Source of the DNA: a virus
IMG/VR virus record: IMGVR_UViG_3300048837_000693
Span: 1-29,355 of that record
DNA: 29,355 bases
Strand: one strand, 5' to 3'
Below, one piece after another: positions 1-21,334 of this stretch. Numbering within the stretch: the first letter of the stretch is position 1; the number at the start of each line of letters is the position of its first letter. The position numbers and the translations under genes are program-made. Under the pieces are notes generated by a model. That model was given only the letters and a program-made list of their open reading frames with translations, did no database searches and had not been told where the DNA came from.

Positions 1-101
1 GTGGTGCGTCGACTTCCGCTACGGCTTCGTCAACGACCTCGGCCACGACGGCGAGTGCTTCGTGCGCGCGGTCCGCGTGGCGTCGCCGGCGGCCAGTCAG
101 T
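1..101 (+). repeat. DGR variable repeat 1 (VR1), truncated by window edge
   Basis: Aligns without gaps to the template repeat at 5483-5583 and to VR2 at 4818-4918. Relative to the template, 12 of the 19 adenines in the 14-codon variable stretch (11-52) are replaced, and no non-adenine base in that stretch differs. The invariant 3' part (53-97) corresponds to the initiation-of-mutagenic-homology region. At position 98 it has C where the template has G. Identity with VR2 continues past the stop codon to about 116, farther than identity with the template. Confidence 0.93.
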
Positions 102-2188: not shown

Positions 2189-4210
2189 ATGCACCAGAAC
2201 ATCACCGTCCCGCTCGACCAGCTCAGGCTGTCGAGTCGCAACGCCCGCAAGACCGGCGGCGACGACGTGGCCGACATGGCCGCCTCGATCGCTGCTGGCG
2301 GCCTGCTGCAGAACCTGGTCGTCATCGATGGCCCCGACGGGTTCGAGGTCATCGCCGGCGGCCGCCGGCTAAAGGCCATGCAGCAGCTGGCCAAGGACGG
2401 CCGCCTGCCGGCCGAGCTGCTTACCGACGGCGTGCCATGCCGCCGCCTCACCGACGAAGAAGCGATCGAGGCGAGCACCGCCGAGAACACCATTCGCGTA
2501 CCGATGCACCCGGCCGACCAGTTCGACGCGTTCAAGGTCATGATCGACGCCGGCAAGTCGATCACCGACGTCGCCGCGCACTTCAGCATCACCGAGACCG
2601 TGGTGAAGCAGCGCCTCAAGCTGGCCAACGTCCACCCCAAGCTGGTCCAGGTCTATCGCGACGACGGCATGTCGCTGCAGCAGCTGCAGGCGCTCGCCGT
2701 GACCGACGACCACAAGGCGCAGCTCGACGCCTGGACGAAGCCGAAGAATGAGTGGGAACGCGACGCACATTCGCTGCGCCAGCGCCTCACCGAGAAGGAG
2801 ATTCGCTCGACGGATCCGCGGGTGAACTTCATTGGCCTCGATGCGTACGAGGCCGCCGGCGGCGCGGTGCGGCGCGACCTGTTCTCGACGCGGGACGAAG
2901 CCTTCCTGGCCGACGGCAATCTGCTCGATCGCCTGGTGGCCGAAAAGCTGGAGCGCGTGATCGAGGAGCTGCGCGCCGAGGGCTGGGCCTGGGTGGAGTA
3001 CAAGCCCAAGCTCGACTACAGCGGGCAGGCCGAATACGCCCAGCACCCGCTCGAACCCACCAAGCAGCCGCCCACCGCCGAGCAGAAGGCGCGGCTGGCG
3101 GAAATCAATGCACGGCAGCGAGCAGTGGGGAAAGAGCTGGACCAGTTGGAACGCGCTGGAAAGGACGAAACCGACGAGTACTCGGCACTCATCGACGAAA
3201 ACGACGCTCTTGAGGAAGAGCACGCCGAACTCAGCGCGGGCACCGAAGTCTGGCCGGACAAGGTCAAGACCGAGGCGGGAAGTCTCCTGGTGATGGACGG
3301 CGCCGGCGGTGTGGTGATCCTCCGCGGTCGCCTGAAGCCCGGCCAGTCGATCAAGGCCGGCAAATTGGCGGGCCAGCCGAAGGAGCCGACCAAAGCCAAG
3401 AAGCTCGAGCTCAGCGACGCACTGGTCCATCGCCTCACGGCGCACCGCACGCTGGCCCTGCAGGCGGCGCTGGCCAGCAACCCCGATGTCGCGCTCAAGG
3501 AGGTGGTGTGCATCCTGATCGAGAACGTCGAGCGCGGCATGGACATCAGCGGCTCCTCGGCCGTGAAGCTCTCGCTCAGCCGCCCGTCGATCCCGGACGC
3601 GCCGGACCTCAAGAAGTGCCGGGCCACGCTGGCGCTGCAGATGGCGCTCAAGGGCTGGCGCGAGGCAGGCCTGCCCACGACCGCGGCCGAGCGCCGGAAG
3701 TGGATCTACGGCCAGCCGATTGCCACCCTGCACGGCCTGCTGGCACTGGCCGCCGCCTACGGCGTCGACGCGGTGCACGAGAAGAACTCCCGGGCCCCGG
3801 CGGCCGACGCGCTGGCTGAGGCCCTGAAGCTGGACATGGCTGCCTGGTGGCAACCCACGGCCGACACCTACCTGGGCACCGTGCCCAAGGCGCTGGCGAT
3901 CGAGGCCGTCGCCGAGGCCTGCGGCAAGGAAGCAGCCGCCAGCCTGGTCAGCCTCAAGTCTGCGGCCGTGGTGGCCGAGGCCGGCAAGAAGCTCGCTGGC
4001 ACCGGCTGGCTGCCGAAGTTGCTGCGCGGCCCGGGCTACGGCATCGCCAAATCGGCCGGCGCACCGGCCGTCGCCCTGAAGAAACCGCAGGCGGCGAAGA
4101 AACCGGTCGGCAAGCCCGCTGCCGCGAGCAAGAAGTCGGCCATCAAGAAACCTGCTGCCAAGAAAGCAGCAGCCAAGAAGCCCACGACCAAGAAGGCATC
4201 CAAGAAATGA
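2189..4210 (+). CDS. ParB/Srx-fold protein with long C-terminal region and histone H1-like tail
   Basis: 673 aa, with GGAG at 2179-2182 before ATG 2189. Residues 1-110 form a ParB N-terminal domain: VIAGGRRLKAM carries the GGRR nucleotide-binding motif at 57-60, and AENTIRVPMHPADQF matches the ParB box II region. Residues 120-170 contain a helix-turn-helix (SITDVAAHFSITETVVKQRLKLA). A charged, probably coiled-coil stretch lies near 300-350 and has lower GC than the rest. The last 50 residues are AKKPAAKK-type repeats as in histone H1. ParB proteins are CTP-dependent DNA clamps; several phage and plasmid relatives are nucleases or regulators. No ParA partner is visible. Its stop overlaps the start of the DGR target gene as ATGA, so the two are translationally coupled. 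Confidence 0.88.
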   Translation: MHQNITVPLDQLRLSSRNARKTGGDDVADMAASIAAGGLLQNLVVIDGPDGFEVIAGGRRLKAMQQLAKDGRLPAELLTDGVPCRRLTDEEAIEASTAENTIRVPMHPADQFDAFKVMIDAGKSITDVAAHFSITETVVKQRLKLANVHPKLVQVYRDDGMSLQQLQALAVTDDHKAQLDAWTKPKNEWERDAHSLRQRLTEKEIRSTDPRVNFIGLDAYEAAGGAVRRDLFSTRDEAFLADGNLLDRLVAEKLERVIEELRAEGWAWVEYKPKLDYSGQAEYAQHPLEPTKQPPTAEQKARLAEINARQRAVGKELDQLERAGKDETDEYSALIDENDALEEEHAELSAGTEVWPDKVKTEAGSLLVMDGAGGVVILRGRLKPGQSIKAGKLAGQPKEPTKAKKLELSDALVHRLTAHRTLALQAALASNPDVALKEVVCILIENVERGMDISGSSAVKLSLSRPSIPDAPDLKKCRATLALQMALKGWREAGLPTTAAERRKWIYGQPIATLHGLLALAAAYGVDAVHEKNSRAPAADALAEALKLDMAAWWQPTADTYLGTVPKALAIEAVAEACGKEAAASLVSLKSAAVVAEAGKKLAGTGWLPKLLRGPGYGIAKSAGAPAVALKKPQAAKKPVGKPAAASKKSAIKKPAAKKAAAKKPTTKKASKK

Positions 4211-4920
4211 GCCTGAACATCCGCATCACCGAGCACCCTGACGGCGGCCGCAGCATCGAGATCGGCGATGCGCCAGCGTCGCCGAAGATCAGTCCGTTGC
4301 TTTTTGGTCCTGCACCGCGCTATCACGTCGGCGGCATGACCGGCTTGGCGTCCGACGAAGTGCCCGCCATCCTCCATCGCGGGCAAGATGTCCCGACCAG
4401 GGAGAGTCTGCGGAAGCCGCGTCCGGCGGCTATGTCTGCTGACGCGCAGAACCTCTCCGACGGTATCGCGGTCGCGACGCTGACCCAGCCGCGATTCATT
4501 AAGCTCGGCGGCGCCGGCGAACCGCTGGCGGAAGATGCATCGAGCTGGGCAGCCGTGCAGGACAAGACGACCGGCCTGATCTGGTCGGCCGAGAACGTTG
4601 CGCCCAAGCGACTGCCCCACGCGAAGGCCGTCGCCGTCTGCCAAAAACTCGAGCTTGCCGGTGCCAAGGACTGGCAGCTTCCGACCCGCACGCAGCTGCT
4701 GACGCTGGTCGACGACACGCGCCACGAGCCGGCGATCGACACGGACTACTTCCCGAAGACCGAGAACGGCTACTACTGGACGAACACTCCGTGCGCCTGG
4801 CGCCCGGGTTCGGCGGCGTGGTGCGTCGACTTCCTCAACGGCCGCGTCCACGACTTCGGCCACGGCGCCGAGTGCTTCGTGCGCGCGGTCCGCGTGGCGT
4901 CGCCGGCGGCCAGTCAGTAA
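4207..4920 (+). CDS. DGR target protein 2: variable DUF1566 (C-type-lectin-like) protein with a tape-measure-like N-terminal module
   Basis: 237 aa, start coupled to the ParB-like gene. Residues 28-62 (ISPLLFG, APRYH, DEVPAIL, RG) are 26/35 identical to the C-terminal region of the tape-measure protein encoded at 21327-24221. Residues 115-233 are a DUF1566/Lcl domain: TGLIWS, DWQLPTRTQLLTLVD, YYWTNT, AWCVDF and ECFVRAVRV. Codons 194-237 are the variable repeat, and residues 208-221 are the diversified positions. No signal peptide is seen, so it is not an obvious secreted protein. DUF1566/CLec proteins are established DGR targets that bind ligands. I infer a phage tail-tip adhesin, with the N-terminal module as the attachment part. 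Confidence 0.93.
   Translation: MSLNIRITEHPDGGRSIEIGDAPASPKISPLLFGPAPRYHVGGMTGLASDEVPAILHRGQDVPTRESLRKPRPAAMSADAQNLSDGIAVATLTQPRFIKLGGAGEPLAEDASSWAAVQDKTTGLIWSAENVAPKRLPHAKAVAVCQKLELAGAKDWQLPTRTQLLTLVDDTRHEPAIDTDYFPKTENGYYWTNTPCAWRPGSAAWCVDFLNGRVHDFGHGAECFVRAVRVASPAASQ
4288..4392 (+). repeat. Tape-measure-like module inside DGR target gene
   Basis: This 105-bp segment and 21522-21626 (minus strand) are 76/105 identical in DNA without gaps and 26/35 identical in protein. Most DNA differences are in third codon positions, so the protein sequence has been kept while the DNA diverged. This is therefore an old, selected similarity rather than a fresh duplication. Confidence 0.85.
4788..4918 (+). 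repeat. DGR variable repeat 2 (VR2)
   Basis: 131 bp aligned gap-free to the template repeat at 5453-5583. Thirteen differences lie in 4828-4869 and all are at template adenines (AAC to GAC, CTC, CGC, CAC, TTC, GCC; GAC to GGC). The only other difference is position 4915, C where the template has G, the hallmark distinction between the homology-initiation sequence of VR and that of TR. A GGCCA...TGGCC inverted repeat brackets the stop codon at 4909-4927. Confidence 0.96.
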
Positions 4921-4950: not shown

Positions 4951-5388
4951 ATGACCCATTTCGCCCCGCCCGTCGTCAAGGCCGCCGAACGCATCCTGCT
5001 CGATGTCGAGCTGGCAGTGCGTCGGTGGCCCCGATCGCACCGTTACGCGATCGGGGGCGACCTGCGCAAGCAGGCGCTCGCTCTAGCCGTCCGGGCGAAC
5101 CTCGCCTGGCGCGAGCAGGGCCGGCGTGGCGAGCACGTGCGGGCACTGGTGACGGGCGTGGAGGCACTGAAGGTGCTGCTGCAGTTGGGCAGCCAGCTCA
5201 AGGCCTTCAACAGCTTCGGGCAGTTCGAACAGCTGGCACGCCAGGCGCACGATCTCGGGCGCCAGGTGGGCGGCTGGTCAAAGAGTGAGCAATGCCCCAA
5301 GACCCAGAATTGCGGACGCCAGGATGGCGCGCCGCAAGCGAGGTCAGGAACTGAGTACTCGCGCCGCCCCCGCGGGGCCAACCGATGA
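4951..5388 (+). CDS. avd: Avd-like DGR accessory protein (four-helix bundle)
   Basis: 145 aa. Features of the Avd / 23S-rRNA-intervening-sequence four-helix family are present: ILLDVELAVRRWPRSHRYAIGGDLRKQALALAVRANLA matches the hallmark arrangement (helix, Pro-x-x-x-Arg-Tyr, Gly-x-x-Leu-Arg, long helix), followed by a third helix around VRALVTGVEALKVLL and a fourth around FEQLARQAHDLGRQVGGW. Avd is a basic pentameric barrel that binds the reverse transcriptase and the template RNA and is needed for mutagenic cDNA synthesis. The basic residues along the helices fit this. The last 30 residues (Gln/Arg/Gly rich) are beyond the usual fold. The gene lies between the target and the template, the classic position. 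AAGGAAG at 4931-4937 is a possible but distant ribosome site. Confidence 0.87.
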   Translation: MTHFAPPVVKAAERILLDVELAVRRWPRSHRYAIGGDLRKQALALAVRANLAWREQGRRGEHVRALVTGVEALKVLLQLGSQLKAFNSFGQFEQLARQAHDLGRQVGGWSKSEQCPKTQNCGRQDGAPQARSGTEYSRRPRGANR

Positions 5389-5452: not shown

Positions 5453-5583
5453 TCCGTGCGCCTGGCGCCCGGGTTCGGCGGCGTGGTGCGTCAACTTCAA
5501 CAACGGCAACGTCAACAACAACGACCACGACAACGAGTGCTTCGTGCGCGCGGTCCGCGTGGCGTCGCCGGCGGCCAGTGAGT
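5453..5583 (+). repeat. DGR template repeat (TR)
   Basis: 131-bp template between avd and the reverse transcriptase. In the variable window 5493-5534 it is written almost wholly in AAC and GAC/CAC codons (19 adenines in 14 codons). The 40 bp before the window contain no adenine, and the 49 bp after it contain only a few (one in GAG at 5536, the rest in the last 7 bp). It encodes in frame the same WCVxF...ECFVRAVRVASPAAS sequence as both targets. Together with its flanks it should be transcribed as the template RNA for error-prone reverse transcription. Confidence 0.96.
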
Positions 5584-5585
5584 TC

Positions 5586-5615
5586 CCGGGTGAACCCGGC
5601 ATGGAGGTTTCCATG
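5586..5615 (+). promoter_or_regulatory. Double hairpin at TR 3' end overlapping RT ribosome site and start
   Basis: Two perfect stems are stacked end to end. CCGGG-TGAA-CCCGG at 5586-5599 follows the template directly and has a GNRA-like small tetraloop. CATGGA-GGTT-TCCATG at 5600-5615 contains the GGAGG ribosome site (5603-5607) and the RT start codon (5613-5615). The first probably marks the 3' boundary of the template RNA; the second could hold RT translation low. The structures are seen in the sequence; the roles are inferred. Confidence 0.6.
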
Positions 5616-6770
5616 CAAATGCTCCACGCGGCGTGGCAGGAAGCCAGGCGCGGCAAGACCCCGAGCGTCAACCAGCTGCGCTTCGACGTCGATTGGATCG
5701 GCGGGTTGCTGCAGCTGCAGGGGCAGATCAACGCCGGCGCGTGGGAGCCGCGGCCAAGCACGTGCTTCATCGCCACTCGGCCCAAGGCTCGGGAGATCCA
5801 TGCGCCCGACTTCGCCGATCGTGTTGTCCACCACCTCGTAGTGCCCCACCTCGAAGCGCTGTACGAGCCGACCTTCATCCACGATAGCTACGCCAACCGC
5901 CCAGGCAAAGGCACACACGCGGCCGTTCGGCGCTTGCAGGCGTTTGTCCGACAGACCGACGCCGGCGAAGGCGGCGGCTGGTACCTTCAGCTCGACGTGC
6001 ACAACTTCTTCAACTCGATCCATCGGGCAACCCTGTATCGGCTGCTCAAGCGCCGCATGGAGCGCGAACGTCTGCCGCTGGTCTACCAGCGCATCACGCA
6101 CGCCCTGTTGCGACGTTCCCCGCTCGACGCCGGCGTCACTTACCGGGCCACCGGGGCCGAGCGTGCTGCCGTCCCTGCACACAAGCGCCTGGAGAACGCA
6201 CCGCCCGGCTGCGGCCTGCCTATCGGCAACCTGAGCAGCCAGTTCTTCGCCAACGTCTACCTGGACCAGCTCGACCAGTTCGTGAAGCACACGCTCAAGG
6301 CCAAGCGCTATCTGCGCTACGTCGACGACTTCGTTCTGGTCCACCACGACCGCGCCCAGCTGCAAGCCTGGCATGGACATATCGAACGCTTCCTGGCTCA
6401 CCGGCTCGGGCTCTCGCTGAAGGCGGACGTACGACTGCGTCAGCTATCCAGCGGAATCGACTTCCTGGGCTACGTGGTTCGGCCCAGCCACACGCGGGTC
6501 CGGCCTCGCGTGGTCGCGCATGCGCGCCAAGCGCTGACGGCATGGGCCTGCGAGCACGTCACGGAACGCGGGCTGCGCGCCACACCCGCCGATCTGCGCC
6601 GCATTGGCGCCGTCTGGGGCAGCTACCAGGGGCACCTGCAACACGCCGCCAGCTGGCGTCTGCATCGCGATTTCCACCGCCGTTTCCCATGGCTGGCCAG
6701 CGCCACCCGGCCACGCCGATTCGCCCCGTCCGTCGAGGGACGGCTGATGAACTTCCCCTATGGAGTATGA
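5613..6770 (+). CDS. DGR reverse transcriptase
   Basis: 385 aa from ATG 5613, chosen because GGAGG lies 5 bases upstream; an in-frame ATG at 5601 is also possible, and the frame is open all the way through the template from 5385. Reverse-transcriptase motifs in order: LQLDVHNFFNSIHR with catalytic Asp about residue 128; GLPIGNLSSQFFANVYLDQLD, where residues 204-210 IGNLSSQ fit the DGR-type [IVL]GxxxSQ signature rather than the QG signature of retrovirus or group II enzymes; RYVDDFVLV with YVDD at 236-239; then LSLKADVRLRQLSSGIDFLGYVV. No maturase, nuclease or RNase H domain is present, as usual for DGR enzymes. It copies the template RNA with errors opposite adenine and works with Avd. Confidence 0.96.
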   Translation: MQMLHAAWQEARRGKTPSVNQLRFDVDWIGGLLQLQGQINAGAWEPRPSTCFIATRPKAREIHAPDFADRVVHHLVVPHLEALYEPTFIHDSYANRPGKGTHAAVRRLQAFVRQTDAGEGGGWYLQLDVHNFFNSIHRATLYRLLKRRMERERLPLVYQRITHALLRRSPLDAGVTYRATGAERAAVPAHKRLENAPPGCGLPIGNLSSQFFANVYLDQLDQFVKHTLKAKRYLRYVDDFVLVHHDRAQLQAWHGHIERFLAHRLGLSLKADVRLRQLSSGIDFLGYVVRPSHTRVRPRVVAHARQALTAWACEHVTERGLRATPADLRRIGAVWGSYQGHLQHAASWRLHRDFHRRFPWLASATRPRRFAPSVEGRLMNFPYGV

Positions 6771-9822: not shown

Positions 9823-10143
9823 ATGAAGCTCAGGTCCGTCACGCCCGCGCCCCGGCCGCCACAGCACTGGAAGGTCATGCTGCCGTGCCCGTTCTGCGAC
9901 GGCGAAGCCAAGATGCTCAGCTCGGCGATGCTAAGTGTCCCGAACTTCGGCAGCAACGCGTGTGTGATTTGTTCGCGCTGTGGGAGCGGCGGCCCTGTCG
10001 TGGAGCCCGTGAAGGAATACCGCACGCTTGAAGCGATCGAGCGGCATGCGGTCAGGCTGTGGAACCGCCGCGGATCACATCAGGCAGCAGAGTGGAAGCT
10101 CCGCCGCATCGCCCAGATACTGAACAGCGAGCACGCCGGCTGA
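9823..10143 (+). CDS. Lar-like zinc-ribbon protein (restriction alleviation family type)
   Basis: 106 aa from ATG 9823. The CPFCDGEAKM block (Cys 22 and 25), the CVICSRCGSGGP block (Cys 47, 50, 53) and the closing AVRLWNRRG block (WNRR 80-83) follow the order of the Lar / phage zinc-ribbon family, in which the final WNxR is the best conserved feature. The founding member, Rac prophage Lar, eases type I restriction; most phage relatives are untested. Its stop overlaps the recombinase start (TGATG), so it is co-translated with the integration gene. Confidence 0.8.
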   Translation: MKLRSVTPAPRPPQHWKVMLPCPFCDGEAKMLSSAMLSVPNFGSNACVICSRCGSGGPVVEPVKEYRTLEAIERHAVRLWNRRGSHQAAEWKLRRIAQILNSEHAG

Positions 10144-11699
10144 TGCGCATCGCCGCGTACGCCCGTTACAGCTCCGACGCTCAACGCGAGGCGTCCCTCG
10201 AGGACCAGCTGCGGAACTGCCGCGCCTACTGCACGCGCATGGGCTGGCCGGCGCCGGCGGAGTACCAAGACGCTGCGATCAGCGGCAGCCGTAACGACCG
10301 GCCGGGCTACCTGCGCCTGCTGGCCGATGCCACTCGCGTCGACGTGATCCTGGTGGACGACCTGAGCCGGCTCAGCCGCGACAGCATCGAAAGCGCCACG
10401 GCGATCCGGCGCCTGAAGTTCGCGGGCGTGCGCGTGGTCGGCGTCAGCGACGGCTACGACACGGCGCAGAAGGGCCACAAGGCCAACGGCGCGCTGCGCG
10501 GGCTGATGTCCGAGCTCTACCTCGACGACCTGGCCGAGAAGACCCACCGCGGCCTGACTGGGCGCGCACTGGCGGGCGCCAGCGCCGGCGGCCTGCCGTT
10601 CGGTTACGCCGTGGGCGTGAAGGCTGGCCAGCGAATCGTCGAAGAGCTGCAAGCGGACGTGGTGCGCCGCATCTTCTCCGAGTATCTGGCCGGCGGCACG
10701 CCGCGCTCGATCGCCGCGGGCCTGAATCGGGACGGCGTCCCCAGCGCGCGGCTAGGCAAGTCCTGGGCCGCGTCGGCCATCCATGGCGACGTGAAGCGCG
10801 GCATCGGCATCCTCGCCAACCCGATCTACATCGGGCGCCAGGTCTGGAACCGGAGCCACTGGATCAAGCACCCGGACACCGGCCGCCGGATTCGCCAGGA
10901 GCGCCCGCGCGAGGACTGGATCGAGCAGATCCTGCCCGAGCTGGCGATCGTTGACCGCGCGACGTGGGACGCCGTGCAGGCGCGAATCAAGCGCCAGGGC
11001 GCGTGCACCGGCAAGCGCGGCGGGCCAGGCCGGCCGCCGAAGTACCTGCTCAGCGGGCTGCTCCGCTGCGCCGAATGCGGCGGGCCGCTGGTCATGGTCG
11101 ACGCCAAGGCCTACGCCTGTTCGGTGGCCAAGGAGCGCGGCACCTGCGGCAGCCGCCTGCGCCTGCCGCGGCGCGAGGCCGAGGCGAACCTGCTCGCCGG
11201 CGTGCAGCAGCAGCTGCTGAGCGACGAGGCGTTCGCCGCGTTCCGCAAGGCCTACGCCGCGGCCGCCAAGGCGCGCAAGCCGGACAGCGACGCCGCAGCG
11301 CAGCGCCTGGCGACCGCCGAGCGCGAGCGCGGCAACCTGATGGCGGCCTTGCGCGCGGGAATCATCACGCCGACCACGAAGGCCGAGCTGCTGTCGTGCG
11401 AGGCGGCGGTGGCCAACGCCCAGGCCGAGCTTGAGCACGCACGCGCGACCACGCCGGCGCGCCTGGTGCCGCAGCTTAAGGAACGGTGGGAAGGTATCGT
11501 CGCAGCCCTGGCGCAGCGTGGCCGGAACATGCCGGCGGCACGGGATGCGCTGCGAGAATTGATCGGCGAAGCGATCGTCAGAAACGAAAACGGCGCGATC
11601 CTGTTAGAGATCACGCCGTGTCCGATTAACGTGGTAGCGGGGGCAGGATTCGTGGGCTATCTGCCCGGGCCCGTCCGCATCCAGCTAGTTGGCTCATGA
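10143..11699 (+). CDS. int: Large serine recombinase (phage integrase)
   Basis: 518 aa. The start ATG 10143 overlaps the upstream stop; the frame is open farther upstream, but that sequence is the Lar-like gene in another frame. Residues 1-140 are the resolvase catalytic domain: AAYARYSSDAQREASLEDQL gives nucleophile Ser10, and VDDLSRLSRD plus the GLMSELYLDDLAEKTHRG helix complete the active site. Residues 150-260 are the recombinase domain (GGLPFGYAV, IFSEYLAGGTPRSIAAGLNRDGVPS). A zinc ribbon (Cys 309, 312, 326, 335) and a coiled coil (about 350-440) follow. It should carry out attP x attB integration. The C-terminal part of its gene contains a tRNA-like att core. Confidence 0.95.
   Translation: MRIAAYARYSSDAQREASLEDQLRNCRAYCTRMGWPAPAEYQDAAISGSRNDRPGYLRLLADATRVDVILVDDLSRLSRDSIESATAIRRLKFAGVRVVGVSDGYDTAQKGHKANGALRGLMSELYLDDLAEKTHRGLTGRALAGASAGGLPFGYAVGVKAGQRIVEELQADVVRRIFSEYLAGGTPRSIAAGLNRDGVPSARLGKSWAASAIHGDVKRGIGILANPIYIGRQVWNRSHWIKHPDTGRRIRQERPREDWIEQILPELAIVDRATWDAVQARIKRQGACTGKRGGPGRPPKYLLSGLLRCAECGGPLVMVDAKAYACSVAKERGTCGSRLRLPRREAEANLLAGVQQQLLSDEAFAAFRKAYAAAAKARKPDSDAAAQRLATAERERGNLMAALRAGIITPTTKAELLSCEAAVANAQAELEHARATTPARLVPQLKERWEGIVAALAQRGRNMPAARDALRELIGEAIVRNENGAILLEITPCPINVVAGAGFVGYLPGPVRIQLVGS
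11632..11652 (+). other. Putative attachment core: tRNA 3' end in reverse complement
   Basis: Read on the minus strand, these 21 bases are a perfect tRNA 3' end: the CGAAT half of a T-loop, CCTGC T-stem strand, CCCCGCT acceptor strand, discriminator A and CCA. The upstream part of a tRNA is absent, so it is not a gene. It lies inside the last 25 codons of the serine recombinase. The GCGGGG acceptor strand it would pair with is the kind seen in initiator tRNA-Met, but the isoacceptor is not certain. An inverted repeat CTGCCCG/CGGGCAG (11661-11667, 11702-11708) lies beside it. Confidence 0.6.
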
Positions 11700-12966: not shown

Positions 12967-13188
12967 TCAGCTGATGTTGAACCTCTCTTTCAGGAGCGCG
13001 GTGATGACCGCCCCCATCCGCTCAATCTGCAGGTTCGCCGCGGCAAGAGTCTTGGTGCTGCCATTCTTCCAGGCCAGGTGCTGGTCTTGCCAAGCGCGTG
13101 CCTTGGCAACCTCTGCCTCATGCTCGCGCGTAGCCGTATCGTCAATTTCGTACTTGACGCCGGCGAGCGCCTTTCCTTTCTCAGTCAT
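12967..13188 (-). CDS. Small phage protein after tail fibre gene
   Basis: 73 aa from ATG 13188, which overlaps the stop of the collagen-like gene (ATGA). It is charged and helical ([50 protein letters not shown]) with heptad character in the last 30 residues. Its location right after a fibre gene suggests an assembly helper or fibre subunit, but no family is recognised. Confidence 0.72.
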
Positions 13189-14261
13189 GGGATCGCCTCC
13201 ACCTGAACCTGGAACCAATTGCGCCAGCCGGGCGCGTTCGCGCTGGTCTCAACCGAAAGGGCAGCGGCAGCACTGGGCGGGCTGTTGAAGCCTCCGGTGC
13301 GCTGGGCGCTCTCAGCGCTGTCGTACAGGGACAGCACCATCTGGGACGCCCCTGGCGCAAAGATGGGCACACACATCGGCGAAAACGGTTGGTAGTAGAT
13401 CTGCGCGGCTGTACCGCCGCCCCCTATGAACATTTTTGCGTAGGGCTTGTCGGGGTTGAGGTCCGCGAAAGCCGCGCCATTGGTGAAGGTCTTGGTGCCG
13501 CCGCTGCTGGTGTCGGCCGTGCCCCAGTCCACCACCAGCGCCCCGGGCTGCTCGTTTACGGGGTCCCACTCGCAAATGCCAGCGCGCGCCATGGTGCCAG
13601 CGGACCCGGACACCACCTCGATGGTCGGATTGCTCACCCGCACCCGGCCGATGGGCCGGCCCAGCAGGTAGTAGAGACGGTCATTGGTCGGCGCTACGCC
13701 TTGGCGTGCGCCGGAAGTGGTGCCGAGGAATGCAGAAAGCGAGAGGTTCCCACCCCAGTCCAGGACCGGCGGCAGCTGGCGTACCGGACCGCCGAGCGCG
13801 GCCTCAATGCTCGCCTGGGTCACCGTCGCATCGGAACCATCGGCGCCCGCCGGCCCGGTGGCACCGGCGGCTCCAGCAGGTCCGGGCTCGCCCTGCGGAC
13901 CGGAAGGTCCCGCTGGCCCTGGTTCGCCCTGGGGGCCCTGATCGCCAGCTGGGCCAGTAGCTCCCGTGGGGCCGGCCTCTCCCGGCGCACCTGCGGCCCC
14001 GGGTTCGCCCTGCGGGCCTTGTTCGCCCGCCGGGCCCGGATCCCCCTGGGGCCCTGCAGGTCCGGCAGCGCCAGCGGGCCCGGTCTCTCCCTGCAGCCCC
14101 TGCGCGCCCTCCGGACCCGCAGGACCTGCAGGCCCCGCGGGCCCAGGCATGCCATGGGGCTGGATGGCGGGCATGACGACCCGCTGCACAACCCGCGGCT
14201 GGACGACCAGGTTGGCGACCTTGCCGTACGGGATGCCGTGCTGGGTCAGCCGGACCTTCAC
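13185..14261 (-). CDS. Collagen-like phage tail fibre protein
   Basis: 358 aa. The GTG start at 14261 overlaps the upstream TGA (GTGA); longer starts would run into the upstream gene. Residues 1-36 form a short attachment part, residues 37-141 are 35 uninterrupted Gly-X-Y triplets ([12 protein letters not shown]), and the remaining 215 residues form a globular tip containing [37 protein letters not shown] and a [13 protein letters not shown] end. Collagen triplets in phage fibres make rigid trimeric stalks, and the globular tip is then the likely receptor binder. Gene order (fibre genes after the tip gene) agrees. Confidence 0.9.
13839..14153 (-). repeat. Gly-X-Y collagen repeat region
   Basis: 315 bases coding 35 collagen triplets. 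It is nine-base periodic and very GC rich, with short direct repeats such as those coding GPQGEPGPA. It is prone to slippage, so the number of triplets may differ between phage isolates. Confidence 0.9.
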
Positions 14262-14629
14262 TTCGTGACCTCGGGCACCCACTGGACCGTGTAGGTGCCG
14301 CCGTCCACCACGCATTCGCTCGTGTCCAGGTCGAAGATCTCGATGTCCGAGACCAGCGGCGCCGGCGACGTCGGCCCGTCGATCGCCGCCGTCCGAGAGC
14401 TGGGCACGGCAATCTCGAACGCCTGCCCGACGCGCTGCGCTGCTGGCTCGTCGCCAACGCTGCTGATTGAGAGCAGCGCGGCGCTGTCAGCGTAGGAGCC
14501 ACGGAACTGCATGCGGAATCCGCAGTTGGACGGCAGCTCCAGAGCGGTGGCGCCGTCGTCGTCCAGAAGTTCGAACGTAAAAGCGAACGGCTTGCCCTGC
14601 TTGAGGATGAGCTGGTTGGTGCTGGACAT
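14258..14629 (-). CDS. Phage tail/baseplate-associated protein
   Basis: 123 aa. ATG 14629 follows AGGAG with good spacing. The protein begins [29 protein letters not shown], resembling the beta-sandwich start of baseplate upper proteins that open with a KQG motif and take a polarisation of the tail fibre or diet of short phage peptides. The rest is beta-rich ([27 protein letters not shown]). I infer a small tail-tip or fibre-anchoring beta-sandwich; a precise family is not recognised. Confidence 0.72.
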
Positions 14630-15982: not shown

Positions 15983-18373
15983 TTACTCCGTGGTAAGGGC
16001 GTCGCCGGCTTCGGTGACGAAAGCGTCGCCCGCTTCGGTGATCAGGGGTTCAGGCGCGGAAGCGGTGTAGGCAAACTCGGCCGCGGCCGCTTGCCAGCTG
16101 GCGAGGCCACCACGCACGCTCTCGACTTCGACGCGCACCAGGCCATTGCCACTGACGGTGTAGGGCGTGCCAGACGTGCCTGTGATACCGGTCTCTTCCT
16201 CGTCGAGCACGCCCTCGAGGTAGTAGCGGACGGTGTACGTGGTGCCGGCCTCCGGCCCGACGCTGGCGGCCGACTCATCGATCAGCTGGTCGTCCTGCAG
16301 CACGCGGTCGCGGTGTGCCCAACTGACCGTCAGCTCGCCGATCGCCGACGCCGGATAGGCGACGTCGCTGGCCAAGTCGTCGGTGATCCGCAGTCGCCCG
16401 GGAGGGTATGGCCGCGCCGCCCGTGCCGCGAGCGTGACGAGCTGGGTAGGCGCTGCCTCCAGAAGCAGCACGTTGCTCGCGGTACGACTGAGCAACTTGA
16501 GCTTGACCAGCTCGCCATCGGCGTACTGCCGCGAATCCGTGGCCGTCCAGGCGTCGTAGAACCACAGCCGGGTGCCCGGGGCGTGCTCGATCGCCGGCAC
16601 CGTATCGGCGCATCCCCGGGCCAGGCTGAGGGTCTGCGCGTCCGCGTCGATGGCGGTCACGCGGCAGATCTCGCCATCCCACAGGACGGCGCTGCCCACG
16701 GCCACGCGATCCAGGTCAGTTCCGCTCTCGAGAATCAGGTCCTGCTCGAGCGGGCCGACCACGCCGCCGGCGTCGACCAGTGCCGTCGGGCACCAGTCGC
16801 CGCCGCCGCGGTCCTCGTAGGGCTCCGAGCCGAGCGACGACCAGACGTCGTAGTTCAGGCCGGCCGAGGGCCTGGCGGCGACCGCACCGACGTAGCCGGC
16901 GTCGCTGGCCAGCGCCGTGAGCTCGGCTTCGGGCAGCGTCCCCGCCAGCTCGATGTAAGGCACCTCGAACGCCAGCTGCGCCGGCGGCACGGTGGCGAAG
17001 CTGGGCGGGCGGGTATCCACGCCAGGCTCAGGCACCACGTAGGTGGAGCTTGGCATGCGCGACACGTCCTGGATGGCCGACAGGCGCATCGATCCCGATC
17101 GGCGCGTACCCGAGCTCAGGTCGCCCACCATGCACACCATGTCGGCGATGCCGCGGCGAGGTGCCTGCAGGCGGAAGAACTGGCCACCGCGCCATGCGTA
17201 CGGCGTCCGGTCGGTGGTCAGTTCGAACCGCTTGAGGCCGCTGGACTTCAGGGCGAGGTTTCGTGCCCCGACACGCAGCGCCAGTGCTTCGGTCGGGATC
17301 TCAGGGTGCTGCAGCGTCTCGGCAATGACGCCACCGGCGGCAGTGATGGCGCCGAGCGACTGCAGGGGGCCCGCCGCGCGCTCCTGCTTGCGCACCGGGT
17401 CGAACCACTCGACCGTGACCTGGTTGACCGCCTCGAGCGGATCGGTCGGCTCCTCGGCGTACTCGAGGATGTTGTCGTCGCCCAGGATCGGCAGCGACTC
17501 GAGATCGTAGTCGTCCCGGACCAGGGTGATGCGGTACTTGCCGTCCACCCGGCTCTGGCTGCAGCTGGCGCCCAGGACGTTGAGGATCCGCTTCTGGAAG
17601 TCCTCCACCGTCTCGCTGCCGGCGTCGTATTCGGTGCACAGCCCAAAGCCCTCGTCGTAGGCCCGATCAGCCGCCGCCGCGAAGTTGTCGGCGTCGATGA
17701 GGTCCGCCGGCTCACCCTGCATCTGCGGGTGGGTGATGCTGTCGTAGAGGATGTGCACGGCGTTCATGCCGAACAGCTCCGTCGAGGCGATAGGCGCTGT
17801 GCGCAGCTCGGCCGTGCAGTTGAACAGGTCGGGGCGGGCGTCGGCGAACATGGCCACGTAGGCCTGCGTGGACACCGTCGGCTCACTATCGCCGCGGTCA
17901 TAGACGAACTTCGGCAGGCCGCTTGCGATCGGGCCCAGCAGGTCCTCGCGCCCCTCGGACTGCAGCAGTGCATCGAGCGCGTCCTGGTCGGCCGGCAGCC
18001 CGTACCAGCCGCTGTCCCACACCACATTCCCATCCATCCGGAACAGGTGCCGGCGCGGGTAGGTAGCGTCGACGTAGGCATCCGTCAGCGCCAACGTGGT
18101 GAGCTGGACCTGGGCCGGATAGTCCTCCCAGTCGACGGGGGCGAACGTGTTGACGTAATCCTGCAGCGAGGGCGTGCTCGCCGCGCCGTTGGCGCCGCCG
18201 TTCTGCCCGATCAGGACCGACGCTTCACTGGGGTCGCCCGACAGCAGGATGCCCGCCTTCTCCGGATACCAGCAGTCGTCCTCGTGCCAACCCTCGTAAA
18301 TTCGTCGGGTCTTGGCGGCGAGCGGCTTCGGGTAAGGGTTGAAGGCGCCGTAGAACCCACCCTTGAACACCAT
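15983..18373 (-). CDS. Tail tip (J-like) protein, main C-terminal part downstream of in-frame TAG
   Basis: 796 aa from ATG 18373, with AAGG just upstream so re-initiation is possible. The same frame continues upstream through TAG at 18401-18403 into the 18401-18679 fragment, giving 898 codons in all. It begins FKGGFYGAFNPYPKPLAAKTRR, the expected continuation of the tail-tip family seen with BR0599-type tail operons. Later stretches contain fibronectin-like segments (ELTVSWAHRDR, TYTVRYYLEG), and the end is a short repeat (ITEAGDAFVTEAGDALTTE). This is the central tail hub/receptor region, the equivalent of lambda gpJ. It is one of the largest genes, and a real break would likely stop infection. 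Confidence 0.88.
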   Translation of the reverse strand: MVFKGGFYGAFNPYPKPLAAKTRRIYEGWHEDDCWYPEKAGILLSGDPSEASVLIGQNGGANGAASTPSLQDYVNTFAPVDWEDYPAQVQLTTLALTDAYVDATYPRRHLFRMDGNVVWDSGWYGLPADQDALDALLQSEGREDLLGPIASGLPKFVYDRGDSEPTVSTQAYVAMFADARPDLFNCTAELRTAPIASTELFGMNAVHILYDSITHPQMQGEPADLIDADNFAAAADRAYDEGFGLCTEYDAGSETVEDFQKRILNVLGASCSQSRVDGKYRITLVRDDYDLESLPILGDDNILEYAEEPTDPLEAVNQVTVEWFDPVRKQERAAGPLQSLGAITAAGGVIAETLQHPEIPTEALALRVGARNLALKSSGLKRFELTTDRTPYAWRGGQFFRLQAPRRGIADMVCMVGDLSSGTRRSGSMRLSAIQDVSRMPSSTYVVPEPGVDTRPPSFATVPPAQLAFEVPYIELAGTLPEAELTALASDAGYVGAVAARPSAGLNYDVWSSLGSEPYEDRGGGDWCPTALVDAGGVVGPLEQDLILESGTDLDRVAVGSAVLWDGEICRVTAIDADAQTLSLARGCADTVPAIEHAPGTRLWFYDAWTATDSRQYADGELVKLKLLSRTASNVLLLEAAPTQLVTLAARAARPYPPGRLRITDDLASDVAYPASAIGELTVSWAHRDRVLQDDQLIDESAASVGPEAGTTYTVRYYLEGVLDEEETGITGTSGTPYTVSGNGLVRVEVESVRGGLASWQAAAAEFAYTASAPEPLITEAGDAFVTEAGDALTTE

Positions 18374-18887: not shown

Positions 18888-19351
18888 TTCTTGCCGCCCT
18901 TGGCCTTGATTGGCTGCGTGCCCATCTGCTTGTAGCCAATGACCTGCGGATCCGTGTGCCATATCTCGCCGTAGGTTCGCCGGATGGTTCGACCGTCGCT
19001 CGCAACCGGGGTCTGGGGCTTGGCTTGCTCAGGCGACTTCACCTTCGGTCGGAGCGCATAGCTCACCAGCGCCGAGACCAGCATCACGGCGACGTAGATC
19101 CAGATGTTGAACACGCCTTGCGCGACCGGCAGGCCTTCCACCGTTGCCGGCGCCGCCAGCTCAGCGATCAGCCCGGCCGTCGCGCCCACCAGGACCGCGG
19201 CCGCCGCGAGCAGCGCCGTGGCCCGATGGGCCAGCTCGCGCCACGGCAACAGCAGCAGCTGTGCGCCACGCAGGCGCAGGACGGCGAGGTACCAGCGCAG
19301 GCTGGGCAGGCGGGCACCTGGCAGGCGATGTCGCCACAGGCGCGGGCTCAT
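18884..19351 (-). CDS. Small membrane protein of tail operon (position of lambda gpI)
   Basis: 155 aa from ATG 19351, coupled to the upstream stop. After a basic start it has two hydrophobic segments (ATALLAAAAVLVGATAGLIAELAA and GVFNIWIYVAVMLVSALVSYALRP) and a basic, hydrophilic C-terminal tail ending KAKGGKK. Position and size match the hydrophobic assembly protein located before the tip gene in lambda-like tail operons. It likely acts in assembly rather than being a major virion part. The tail segment TIRRTYGEIWHTDPQVIGYKQMG is well conserved in this class. Confidence 0.78.
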   Translation of the reverse strand: MSPRLWRHRLPGARLPSLRWYLAVLRLRGAQLLLLPWRELAHRATALLAAAAVLVGATAGLIAELAAPATVEGLPVAQGVFNIWIYVAVMLVSALVSYALRPKVKSPEQAKPQTPVASDGRTIRRTYGEIWHTDPQVIGYKQMGTQPIKAKGGKK

Positions 19352-20169
19352 GTCGGATTCCCGTCGAAGGGTGTCTTGATCGGCGCGTAGACCGTGCCGC
19401 CGAAGTTGGGCTCGTTCTCGAAGTCATCGCGGCAAGCTGCGAAGTTGTGCGGACAACCACGGAAAGCGGTCCCCGCGAGGTCTTCCTCGAGGGTGTCGCT
19501 GCCGTAGTTGAGCACTACCGTCTCGCCGGCATGGGAGAGGATCGTGCGGTACTCGGTCTCACCGTCCGGCCGCTCCCACTCGAACACGCCACCGGCGAGG
19601 ATCCCGCTGGCCAGCAGGCCGAAGGCCTCCGCCTGGATGACGGAACCTGCCACGCTGGTCAGGACCGCCGGCGTGGCATGCAGCGCCCGGTCGGCGTTGC
19701 ACATGCCCAGCCCCTGCGAATACACCACCAGCGGGCACGTGTACTGCCACTTCATCGACGCCGAGCGGCTGCGCTGGTTGCCGCTGGAAGGCTCGCAGTT
19801 GAGCTGCAGCAGCGTGTCGGTGAACCGGGGAGCGACGACGCGGCCGATCCACTCGACGTTGACCTCATCGTCCCCCGAATGCGTTGCCAGCCAGACCACG
19901 CCCACGCGGCCGCTGGGCGGGTACGGGCGCCACCACGACGCCACCGGCGCATCGACCGGCAAGGTCAGGGTCAGCATGTTCTTCAGGCGCTGGGAGCTGT
20001 CCCGGATCTCCGAGCGCGCCAGGCCCGCCAGCGGGAGGTAATCGTCGCCGCCCCGGGTCACCACGCGATCGGCGTCGGTGTAGAGCTCGACCACGGCGCC
20101 GCGCGACAGCCGCAGCAGCCCGATCGGGCGCCCCAGGTTCCGGCTCAGCTCGAGCAGGTTAAAGCTCAT
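19348..20169 (-). CDS. Phage BR0599-family tail protein (gpL-like, four conserved cysteines)
   Basis: 273 aa from ATG 20169, overlapping the previous gene. The DUF2163/BR0599 layout is clear: N-terminal beta domain, then KWQYTCPLVVYSQGLGMCNAD, and near the end FRGCPHNFAACRDDFENEPNFGG. Cysteines 145, 157, 239 and 246 are arranged like the four that bind an iron-sulfur cluster in lambda minor tail protein L. By analogy it is part of the tail tip between distal tail protein and hub; the cluster itself is inferred. No tail-tip membrane segment is present. Confidence 0.88.
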   Translation of the reverse strand: MSFNLLELSRNLGRPIGLLRLSRGAVVELYTDADRVVTRGGDDYLPLAGLARSEIRDSSQRLKNMLTLTLPVDAPVASWWRPYPPSGRVGVVWLATHSGDDEVNVEWIGRVVAPRFTDTLLQLNCEPSSGNQRSRSASMKWQYTCPLVVYSQGLGMCNADRALHATPAVLTSVAGSVIQAEAFGLLASGILAGGVFEWERPDGETEYRTILSHAGETVVLNYGSDTLEEDLAGTAFRGCPHNFAACRDDFENEPNFGGTVYAPIKTPFDGNPT

Positions 20170-21334
20170 GCTTGAACCCCCGGAACCCGAGCTCCGAGGA
20201 CAAGACATCCTCGCTCCAGTAGCGCAGCAGGTTGGTGTCGGACTCCTGACGGCACAGGCTCAGGAACGACACCAGCACGACGTCGGAGGCCCCAACATCC
20301 ACACCCAGGTTGGCATCCAGCACCAGCCGCTCGACGCTGGCACTGATCTCGCTGCGCTCGGTGATGCGGCGATAGATTACCGTGCCGTCGAGCAGCTCGA
20401 TCCGCAGGTCGCGGCGGTTGACCTGCAGCGGCCATTGGCTGATGCCGGCCCACTGCACGTCCATCACCGGGCTGCCGCTGGCCAGCGGCGCCACCGGCAC
20501 CAGGTCCTGCGCCTTGCTGGGGATCCAGATCGGGCTCCAGCGCCCCGCCAGGCCGTACAGCAGCGATCGGAAACCGGCCCGGGCATCGCGTCCCACCAGA
20601 TCACACTGGAAGCGGTAGACGGCCAGCGGGATGCCCGGCTGGTCGAAGTACGCCGGCACGCCGGTGGCGTTGTCCACGACCGCCACGTCACGGTCCGGAC
20701 GATGTTCCGGATCGGTCGCCCAGCCGATGTCGAGCTCGAGCACCGGCGCGCCGCGGTAGGTGGGCATGCCGTGCTCATCGCTCCAGTCCATCGCCTCGAG
20801 CAGGCGAAAGCTGATGCGGGTCTGGACGTCGTCGCCGGTGAACCGCGGCAGCAGCGGCACGCTATCGAGCCGCCCCTCGACCAGGGGCACCACCACGGTG
20901 CCGGCCGGCCAGCTGCTGGCGAGCGCCGTGGCCAGCTCGATCTCGGTGTCGCTCACCGCATCGACGGCATGCACTTCGAACCGCCGCGGGTCCTGGGCGA
21001 TCACCAGCGCCCGGCCACCCACGCGGAAACGCCGCAGGCGGGCGTCCAGCTCGAGCGTGGTGGTCCCGTCGCTGGCCCCGACCTCCAGCACCGAGGCATC
21101 GGGCATCAGCGGCACGTCCCAGCTCCCCGCGCCGTTGAGGGTGATCGCGTGCTCCATCTGGCGCCGGGACGCGCCGCTGTGAAGCGTGTCGAACTCCAGG
21201 AACACCCGCGGGGCCTCCCGCTGCCGGCGGCGCTGCTCGGGCCCGGTCGGGGCGTGCATGACGTCGGTGAGCCAGTCCAGACGTTCGGAGACGTCGCCGG
21301 CGGCGGCGAAGGCCCAGGGGAACGCGTCAGCCAC
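20159..21334 (-). CDS. Distal tail / minor tail protein (after tape measure)
   Basis: 391 aa from GTG 21334, overlapping the tape-measure stop. It is beta-rich with FLEFDTLHSGASRRQMEHAITLNGAGSWDVPLMPDASVLEVGASDGTTT and repeated short strands, without catalytic motifs. Its place right after the tape measure and before the BR0599/gpL-like gene matches the distal tail / gpM position in siphophages, although it is much larger than lambda gpM. The C-terminal region contains a domain with RRITERSEISASVERLVLDANLGVD. I judge it a structural tip or ring protein. Confidence 0.78.
   Translation of the reverse strand: MADAFPWAFAAAGDVSERLDWLTDVMHAPTGPEQRRRQREAPRVFLEFDTLHSGASRRQMEHAITLNGAGSWDVPLMPDASVLEVGASDGTTTLELDARLRRFRVGGRALVIAQDPRRFEVHAVDAVSDTEIELATALASSWPAGTVVVPLVEGRLDSVPLLPRFTGDDVQTRISFRLLEAMDWSDEHGMPTYRGAPVLELDIGWATDPEHRPDRDVAVVDNATGVPAYFDQPGIPLAVYRFQCDLVGRDARAGFRSLLYGLAGRWSPIWIPSKAQDLVPVAPLASGSPVMDVQWAGISQWPLQVNRRDLRIELLDGTVIYRRITERSEISASVERLVLDANLGVDVGASDVVLVSFLSLCRQESDTNLLRYWSEDVLSSELGFRGFKHEL

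Follow-up and report, generated by a model that had tools for sequence, protein, structure and literature searches.

The DGR cassette and the tail genes of the window

The window analysed here, a single IMG/VR record that is linear and 29,355 bases long, is one metagenomic contig that carries a diversity-generating retroelement (DGR) cassette and the genes for a tape-measure protein (TMP) and a tail tip (Table 1). The DGR is genuine and complete, with a reverse transcriptase (RT), Avd, a template repeat (TR) and a variable repeat (VR) in a protein of C-type-lectin fold. VR and TR differ at 14 sites, 13 of which are TR adenines, and the RT has relatives that are up to 75% identical. The VR copy in the remnant of the second target is a different variant from the VR of the complete target. 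The cassette and the TMP gene lie on opposite strands, as they do in every phage checked (G003, G009, G016, G497, G515, and G1292), which places the variable proteins outside the tail operon.

Table 1. Features of the window, with positions, strand and basis of assignment.
Feature	Position	Strand	Basis
C-terminal remnant of second DGR target, last 33 residues (WCVDFRYGFVNDLGHDGECFVRAVRVASPAASQ*)	2..100	+	truncated by contig start
DGR target, 237 aa, C-terminal Lcl_C / C-type-lectin domain (residues 116-229)	4207..4920	+	Pfam PF07603 E 5e-28
N-terminal beta-hairpin of target (residues 1-22)	4207..4272	+	AF2 strands 4-9 and 15-20, pLDDT 81-91
Tape-measure-like module in target (residues 28-62), ISPLLFGPAPRYHVGGMTGLASDEVPAILHRGQDV	4288..4392	+	26/35 identity to own TMP; PHROG TMP profiles
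Variable repeat (VR)	4788..4918	+	direct repeat of TR
Avd accessory protein	4951..5388	+	PHROG Avd E 1e-15, Pfam bAvd E 3e-8
Template repeat (TR)	5453..5583	+	direct-repeat partner of VR
DGR reverse transcriptase, conserved part	5607..6770 (open frame from 5385)	+	RVT_1 E 2e-17, PHROG RT E 3e-97
Large serine-recombinase-like protein, 546 aa, integrase or invertase	10059..11699	+	by eye
Collagen-like protein, probably a fibre	13185..14315	-	GPAG/GPQG repeats; end of tail gene cluster
Central hub / tip attachment protein	15983..18373	-	8rk3 E 3e-94; 8vjh E 9e-86
Baseplate hub 1 / upper baseplate protein	19348..20208	-	8vjh 'Baseplate hub 1' E 3e-29; 8rk3 DUF2163 E 2e-20; Phage_BR0599
Distal tail protein	20159..21334	-	8rk3 (JBD30) E 4e-53; 8vjh (Chi) E 2e-20
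Tape-measure protein, 964 aa	21327..24221	-	Pfam TMP_3 E 2e-49; many PHROG TMP families
Predicted TMP C-terminal helix, equivalent of hub-anchored coiled coil in solved tips	21336..21437	-	AF2 helices 154-162, 164-187 of C-terminal fragment
Module in TMP (residues 866-900), VSPLLFGQAPRYHGGGIAGLAPDEVPAILRRGEEV	21522..21626	-	ends 64 residues ahead of TMP C-terminus

The AF2 model of the target has a mean pLDDT of 82.6, with a lectin domain at about 97. Among solved structures, its best match is the C-terminal domain of Legionella Lcl (8q4e, Z 13.8), and Mtd (Z 8.9) and TvpA (Z 8.8) are matched as well. The N-terminal hairpin has the pattern IxI..DG..IxI, which is common to the target and its relatives L005, L007, L013, and L039. 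Between hairpin and lectin, residues of about 21 to 90 are predicted to be disordered, and the tape-measure-like module lies within this stretch (pLDDT about 50-59). Inspection shows no signal peptide in the target, suggesting that the virion rather than the cell surface is the natural reading of its location. The target is not itself a tape measure by domain content. It has no TMP domain in Pfam, its resemblance to TMPs is limited to stretches of 43-52 residues matched by PHROG profiles, and the TMP C-terminal anchoring helix has no counterpart in the AF2 model of the target.

A tape-measure segment in the target linker

The module of the target is identical to the corresponding segment of the TMP of the same phage at 26 of 35 residues and at 76 of 105 bases. 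These values, together with the coordinates and the reading frame, agree exactly with those in a preliminary description of the window. The local alignment score of the two segments was 143, and the maximum obtained with shuffled target sequence was 55 (200 shuffles), which rules out chance similarity. In addition, two PHROG tape-measure profiles independently matched the target, at residues 24-66 and 19-70.

Outside the DGR targets, the module behaves as a tape-measure signature. All or nearly all of the more than 200 other copies examined belong to TMPs, in which the segment almost invariably lies 42-78 residues from the C-terminus. When viral contigs were scanned with a TMP-module profile, all 80 loci found (80/80) were TMPs, TMP fragments or frameshifted pieces, with the module usually 45-78 residues from the C-terminus, and 3 homologous loci among them had tandem module copies, one of which lies farther upstream. 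The tandem copies indicate that the module is able to duplicate within TMPs too. TMPs with two tandem copies 75 residues apart were observed at L098:3102-5738, L103, L105, L332, and L336. The invariant core of the module is A-x-R-[YFML]-H-x-G-G-x-x-G-L-x-x-x-E-x-P-x-x-L-x-x-G-E. In TMPs the constant module is followed by a C-terminal helix of several unrelated versions (e.g. the VVLTHVRNNW and TILNILQRN types), suggesting that the boundary between module and helix is a modular junction in tape measures.

The module was carried by 288 of 50,697 phage records, in which the features listed were tape measures, tail proteins or unnamed. In samples of bacterial genomes from the family (395), the class (369), and the phylum (398), every real match was a TMP. 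Short module-bearing frames in bacterial genomes proved to be truncated TMPs once they were read; the match in L381 was weak and apparently spurious, and that in L056 was a spurious frame. The preliminary description had regarded the occurrence of the motif in many unrelated non-tail proteins as evidence against its proposal. Such proteins were searched for, and a promiscuous motif is rejected, as every intact copy among some 1,150 bacterial genomes was in a TMP.

The preliminary description had also suggested looking for proteins with the motif outside tape measures and next to DGRs, and one clear second DGR target with the module was recovered. The record L225 (IMGVR 3300048586_000149), found independently, has two tandem targets, and MNQITIHVAGNLFAPQLATLAAGITKALPGPADYNAAVRYHSGGIAGLRPDEVPAILQPGERIRTAFTKV... 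occurs in the first of them. A sequence profile of the TMP module (RYHxGG..GL..DEVPAIL..GE) matched both clear targets, that of the window with 63 bits and that of L225 with 62.5 bits (E about 2e-17). The sister phage L256 is 86% identical to L225 across the cassette, and in it KALPEP and FTKVTAEG are separated by 16 unrelated residues instead of the module; the two phages are a clean natural presence/absence pair. The L225 record has no tail genes. A longer, near-complete contig of 37,690 bases (G1292) is 99.65% identical to it over 4 kb, and its TMP carries the module (INPMVFGAAPRYHDGGIAGLRPGEVPAILMEGERIRTAEQEK), as was expected beforehand from the window case. The window and this second phage have homologous tip proteins (distal tail protein E 9e-108, hub E 1e-182). 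When each target module was compared with 116 distinct TMP segments, the TMP of the same phage came top for G1292 (25/30) and shared the top place for the window (27/37).

That the window is one metagenomic contig could favor an assembly artefact as the source of the match. However, the second case was seen in a pair of contigs from two datasets with 99.65% identity, and with the alignment score given above, an explanation by chance or artefact is refuted and retains next to no probability. It is well supported that a TMP piece of 35-40 residues was copied into the target, and likewise that TMP pieces entered the target linker, between the N-terminal hairpin and the variable lectin, at least twice.

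The module is not a generic DGR feature, as nearly all targets of the clade are without it. It was absent from the targets of the 46 nearest RT loci (0/46). Among about 330 distinct N-termini of Lcl_C targets, from all DGR loci retrieved, two gave clear module scores (64.5 and 64.4 bits) and one a weak half-copy. A further 182 Lcl_C frames yielded no new phage with a module-bearing target, and searches of phages, plasmids and ParB neighbours yielded no additional one. Arenimonas caeni, the nearest relative of the window, is collinear with it on both sides and has a target without the module. A frameshifted module was sought in all six frames of the nearest relative L005, and none was found. 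The weak third case is the half-copy GPRFHRGGFTG in Luteimonas sp. FCS-9, which scored 9.9 bits against a maximum of 5.4 in 1,650 shuffles; this prophage (L160:8663-9343, G531) has a probable half-module target and a module-bearing TMP. Of 100 other DGR records, many of them fragments, 10 include a TMP with the module, and the co-occurrence of module-bearing targets with module-bearing TMPs gave a Fisher p of 0.013 for two cases and 0.0016 with the weak third.

The target and TMP segments of the window differ at 7, 4, and 18 bases in codon positions 1, 2, and 3, with silent differences in 14 codons and residue-changing ones in 9. The preliminary description was right that most differences are in third positions, but its conclusion that the amino acids are therefore selected had to be refined. 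Silent identity between the window module and its own TMP is 12/26 codons (0.46), no higher than to unrelated TMPs (mean over all TMPs 0.44, SD 0.09), indicating that the window pair is saturated at silent sites, and constraint on the module amino acids could predate the transfer, acting in the TMP lineage. Recent copying from the TMP of the window phage itself is unsupported, since the silent sites are saturated against every TMP. The window module is possibly an old copy kept under constraint, or one derived from an unsampled TMP. In L225 silent identity was higher than in the window, with 17/25 to its own TMP and 19/23 to another TMP.

Both target modules retain nearly all TMP-invariant positions. 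In the window target, residue 60 is changed from E to Q, and this glutamate (of GE) is invariant in 107 TMP modules. Five positions of the window module have residues found in none of the 107 TMPs, and its similarity to TMPs falls in the lowest 3% of the TMP-like range. The window module thus seems to be under genuine or recent constraint that is more relaxed than the constraint on TMPs.

These observations bear on the possibility that the in-frame duplication of a TMP piece is tolerated as a mere spacer between hairpin and lectin, with the hairpin or something else making any attachment. We consider this somewhat doubtful, yet it deserves serious weight. Among related targets the linker is free to differ in both sequence and length, as in the unrelated residues of the sister allele; the loss of the invariant glutamate and the five unusual positions of the window copy point the same way, and a tolerated linker fits both the rarity of the module and its predicted disorder, module-free targets being the rule. 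However, what appeared twice at the same place was one and the same TMP piece rather than random phage sequence, with its invariant positions nearly all kept, and when the target linkers were compared with 22,780 ORFs of a TMP-rich set, no other linker matched a non-target structural protein.

The tail tip and a possible docking role

Judged from homology of the distal tail, hub-1, and central hub proteins, the tail tip of the window is Chi/JBD30-like (8VJH is phage Chi; PMC11945409). In such tips the C-terminus of the TMP is located at the tail tip, in line with the preliminary description (PMC11445458, PMC11945409, PMC12724387). The TMP residues modelled in the baseplate core are the last 33 in JBD30, 36 in T1, and 32 in Sf11 (PMC11445458, PMC11945409, PMC12724387). 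In JBD30, these C-terminal residues of the TMP are in contact with hub-1, the upper baseplate protein, and a TMP 'hook' farther upstream is predicted to anchor inside the baseplate post-ejection (PMC11445458). In the window TMP the module is 64-98 residues away from the end of the protein, upstream of and outside the tip-resolved helix. It has no confident fold in the AF2 model of the TMP C-terminus, and a profile search of solved structures found it in the Chi TMP only, not in JBD30. The earlier suggestion that the target replaces the tape-measure end is not supported, as the last 32-36 or so residues bound at the tip are downstream of the module and absent from the target.

Of 95 module-bearing TMP loci, 83 encode a homologue of hub-1 just downstream, which makes hub-1 the first candidate partner of the module; the distal tail protein is found there in 45. 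In the Luteimonas sp. FCS-9 prophage, the 38 kb read contain no detectable homologue of the window tip proteins, and the presence of a module-bearing TMP in this region is a point against a hub-specific partner.

The reading that we place first, with a probability not far below even, is that the module is a tail-docking peptide whose putative binding would place the diversified lectin at the tip of the virion. It leads chiefly on three grounds: one and the same TMP segment was taken up, its core was kept, and the TMP of the same phage was matched. According to this proposal, a TMP piece was copied into the target linker and would have been kept through binding the same tail component as in the TMP. 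The binding site would most plausibly lie inside the baseplate, adjoining the hub-1/upper baseplate protein. The module may attach the diversified lectin at the tail tip, or help to load it there, and changes in the lectin at the tip would then alter host recognition. Several points stand against docking. The TMP site is enclosed in a narrow lumen that would leave little room for a 15-kDa lectin. The tip-anchoring TMP helix is absent from the target, and the module is predicted to be unstructured in both proteins. The invariant glutamate is lost, and nearly all targets of the clade do without the module. Finally, the cassette and the tail operon are transcribed in opposite directions.

Alternatively, the module might be read by the tail-assembly chaperones or the tube lumen, so that the lectin would be inside the tail, or handled together with the TMP, instead of being an exposed adhesin. 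Tape-measure proteins are cargo of the lumen, which counts for this reading, as does the report that TMP-related proteins have turned into ejected effectors in contractile systems (PMC13277306). The Luteimonas prophage region without a tip-protein homologue, and the 12 of 95 module-bearing TMP loci that show none, would also fit a partner other than the hub. However, a receptor-diversifying lectin has no obvious use in the tube and the target has no long coiled coil, and we regard this explanation as unlikely.

A further alternative is that the target mimics the TMP and competes with the TMP segment of its own or a superinfecting phage, as an exclusion or assembly-control factor. The opposite orientation of cassette and TMP in every phage checked is consistent with this, and the HK97 TMP work cited in PMC10053308 makes the C-terminus of TMPs a known target during genome injection. 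However, such mimicry leaves the hypermutation of the lectin unexplained and has no known binding partner, which makes it highly improbable.

Beyond the window, docking through the module would mean that phages attach a hypermutable recognition protein to the tail by way of a peptide copied from their own TMP, a generalization that we put forward tentatively. If it is true, the TMP-derived module is a portable virion-targeting tag for hypermutable recognition proteins. In a large survey, no domain was recognisable beyond the variable region in 71% of the main-cluster targets (PMC8144416). Our results bear on the way in which small DGR lectins that lack an obvious attachment domain reach virions, and the question of attachment is directly testable with the natural pair of alleles, of which one has the module and the other does not. 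They also highlight a very conserved, unexplained TMP segment and provide a second context in which its partner can be found.

Comparison with known DGR targets and tape measures

The preliminary description knew of no account of a DGR adhesin targeted in this way. In agreement with this, no description of a DGR target with a TMP segment was found in the most relevant open-access papers joining diversity-generating retroelement and tape measure. The cassette is similar to the BPP-1 DGR (Mtd) in its RT, Avd, adenine mutagenesis between TR and VR, and variable protein with a C-terminal C-type lectin, and Mtd is among the structural matches of the target. However, Mtd attaches by a beta-prism/beta-sandwich N-terminus and has no tape-measure segment (PMC10743442), and the identity of its RT to that of the window is only about 31%. 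The closer relatives are the Lcl_C / DUF1566 targets of Xanthomonadaceae (Lysobacterales) prophages, for example in Arenimonas caeni, Stenotrophomonas, and Xanthomonas, which share an RT clade of up to 75% identity, Avd and Lcl_C, often with tandem targets. Apart from two clear exceptions, one of them the window, the linkers in that group are without the TMP module.

The module itself is similar to the 35-42-residue module in TMPs of Chi-like siphophages (residues 1331-1371 of 1431 in the Chi TMP, 8vjh_Q), whereas the target has none of the TMP_3 domain, the helical body and the C-terminal anchoring helix of these proteins. Similarly, tentaclins, the hypermutated phage proteins with C-lec and Ig domains, consist of a DGR lectin fused to a presumed virion-anchoring part (PMC10743442). 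In tentaclins, however, the anchor is a C-terminal Ig-like domain rather than a TMP-derived peptide (PMC10743442).
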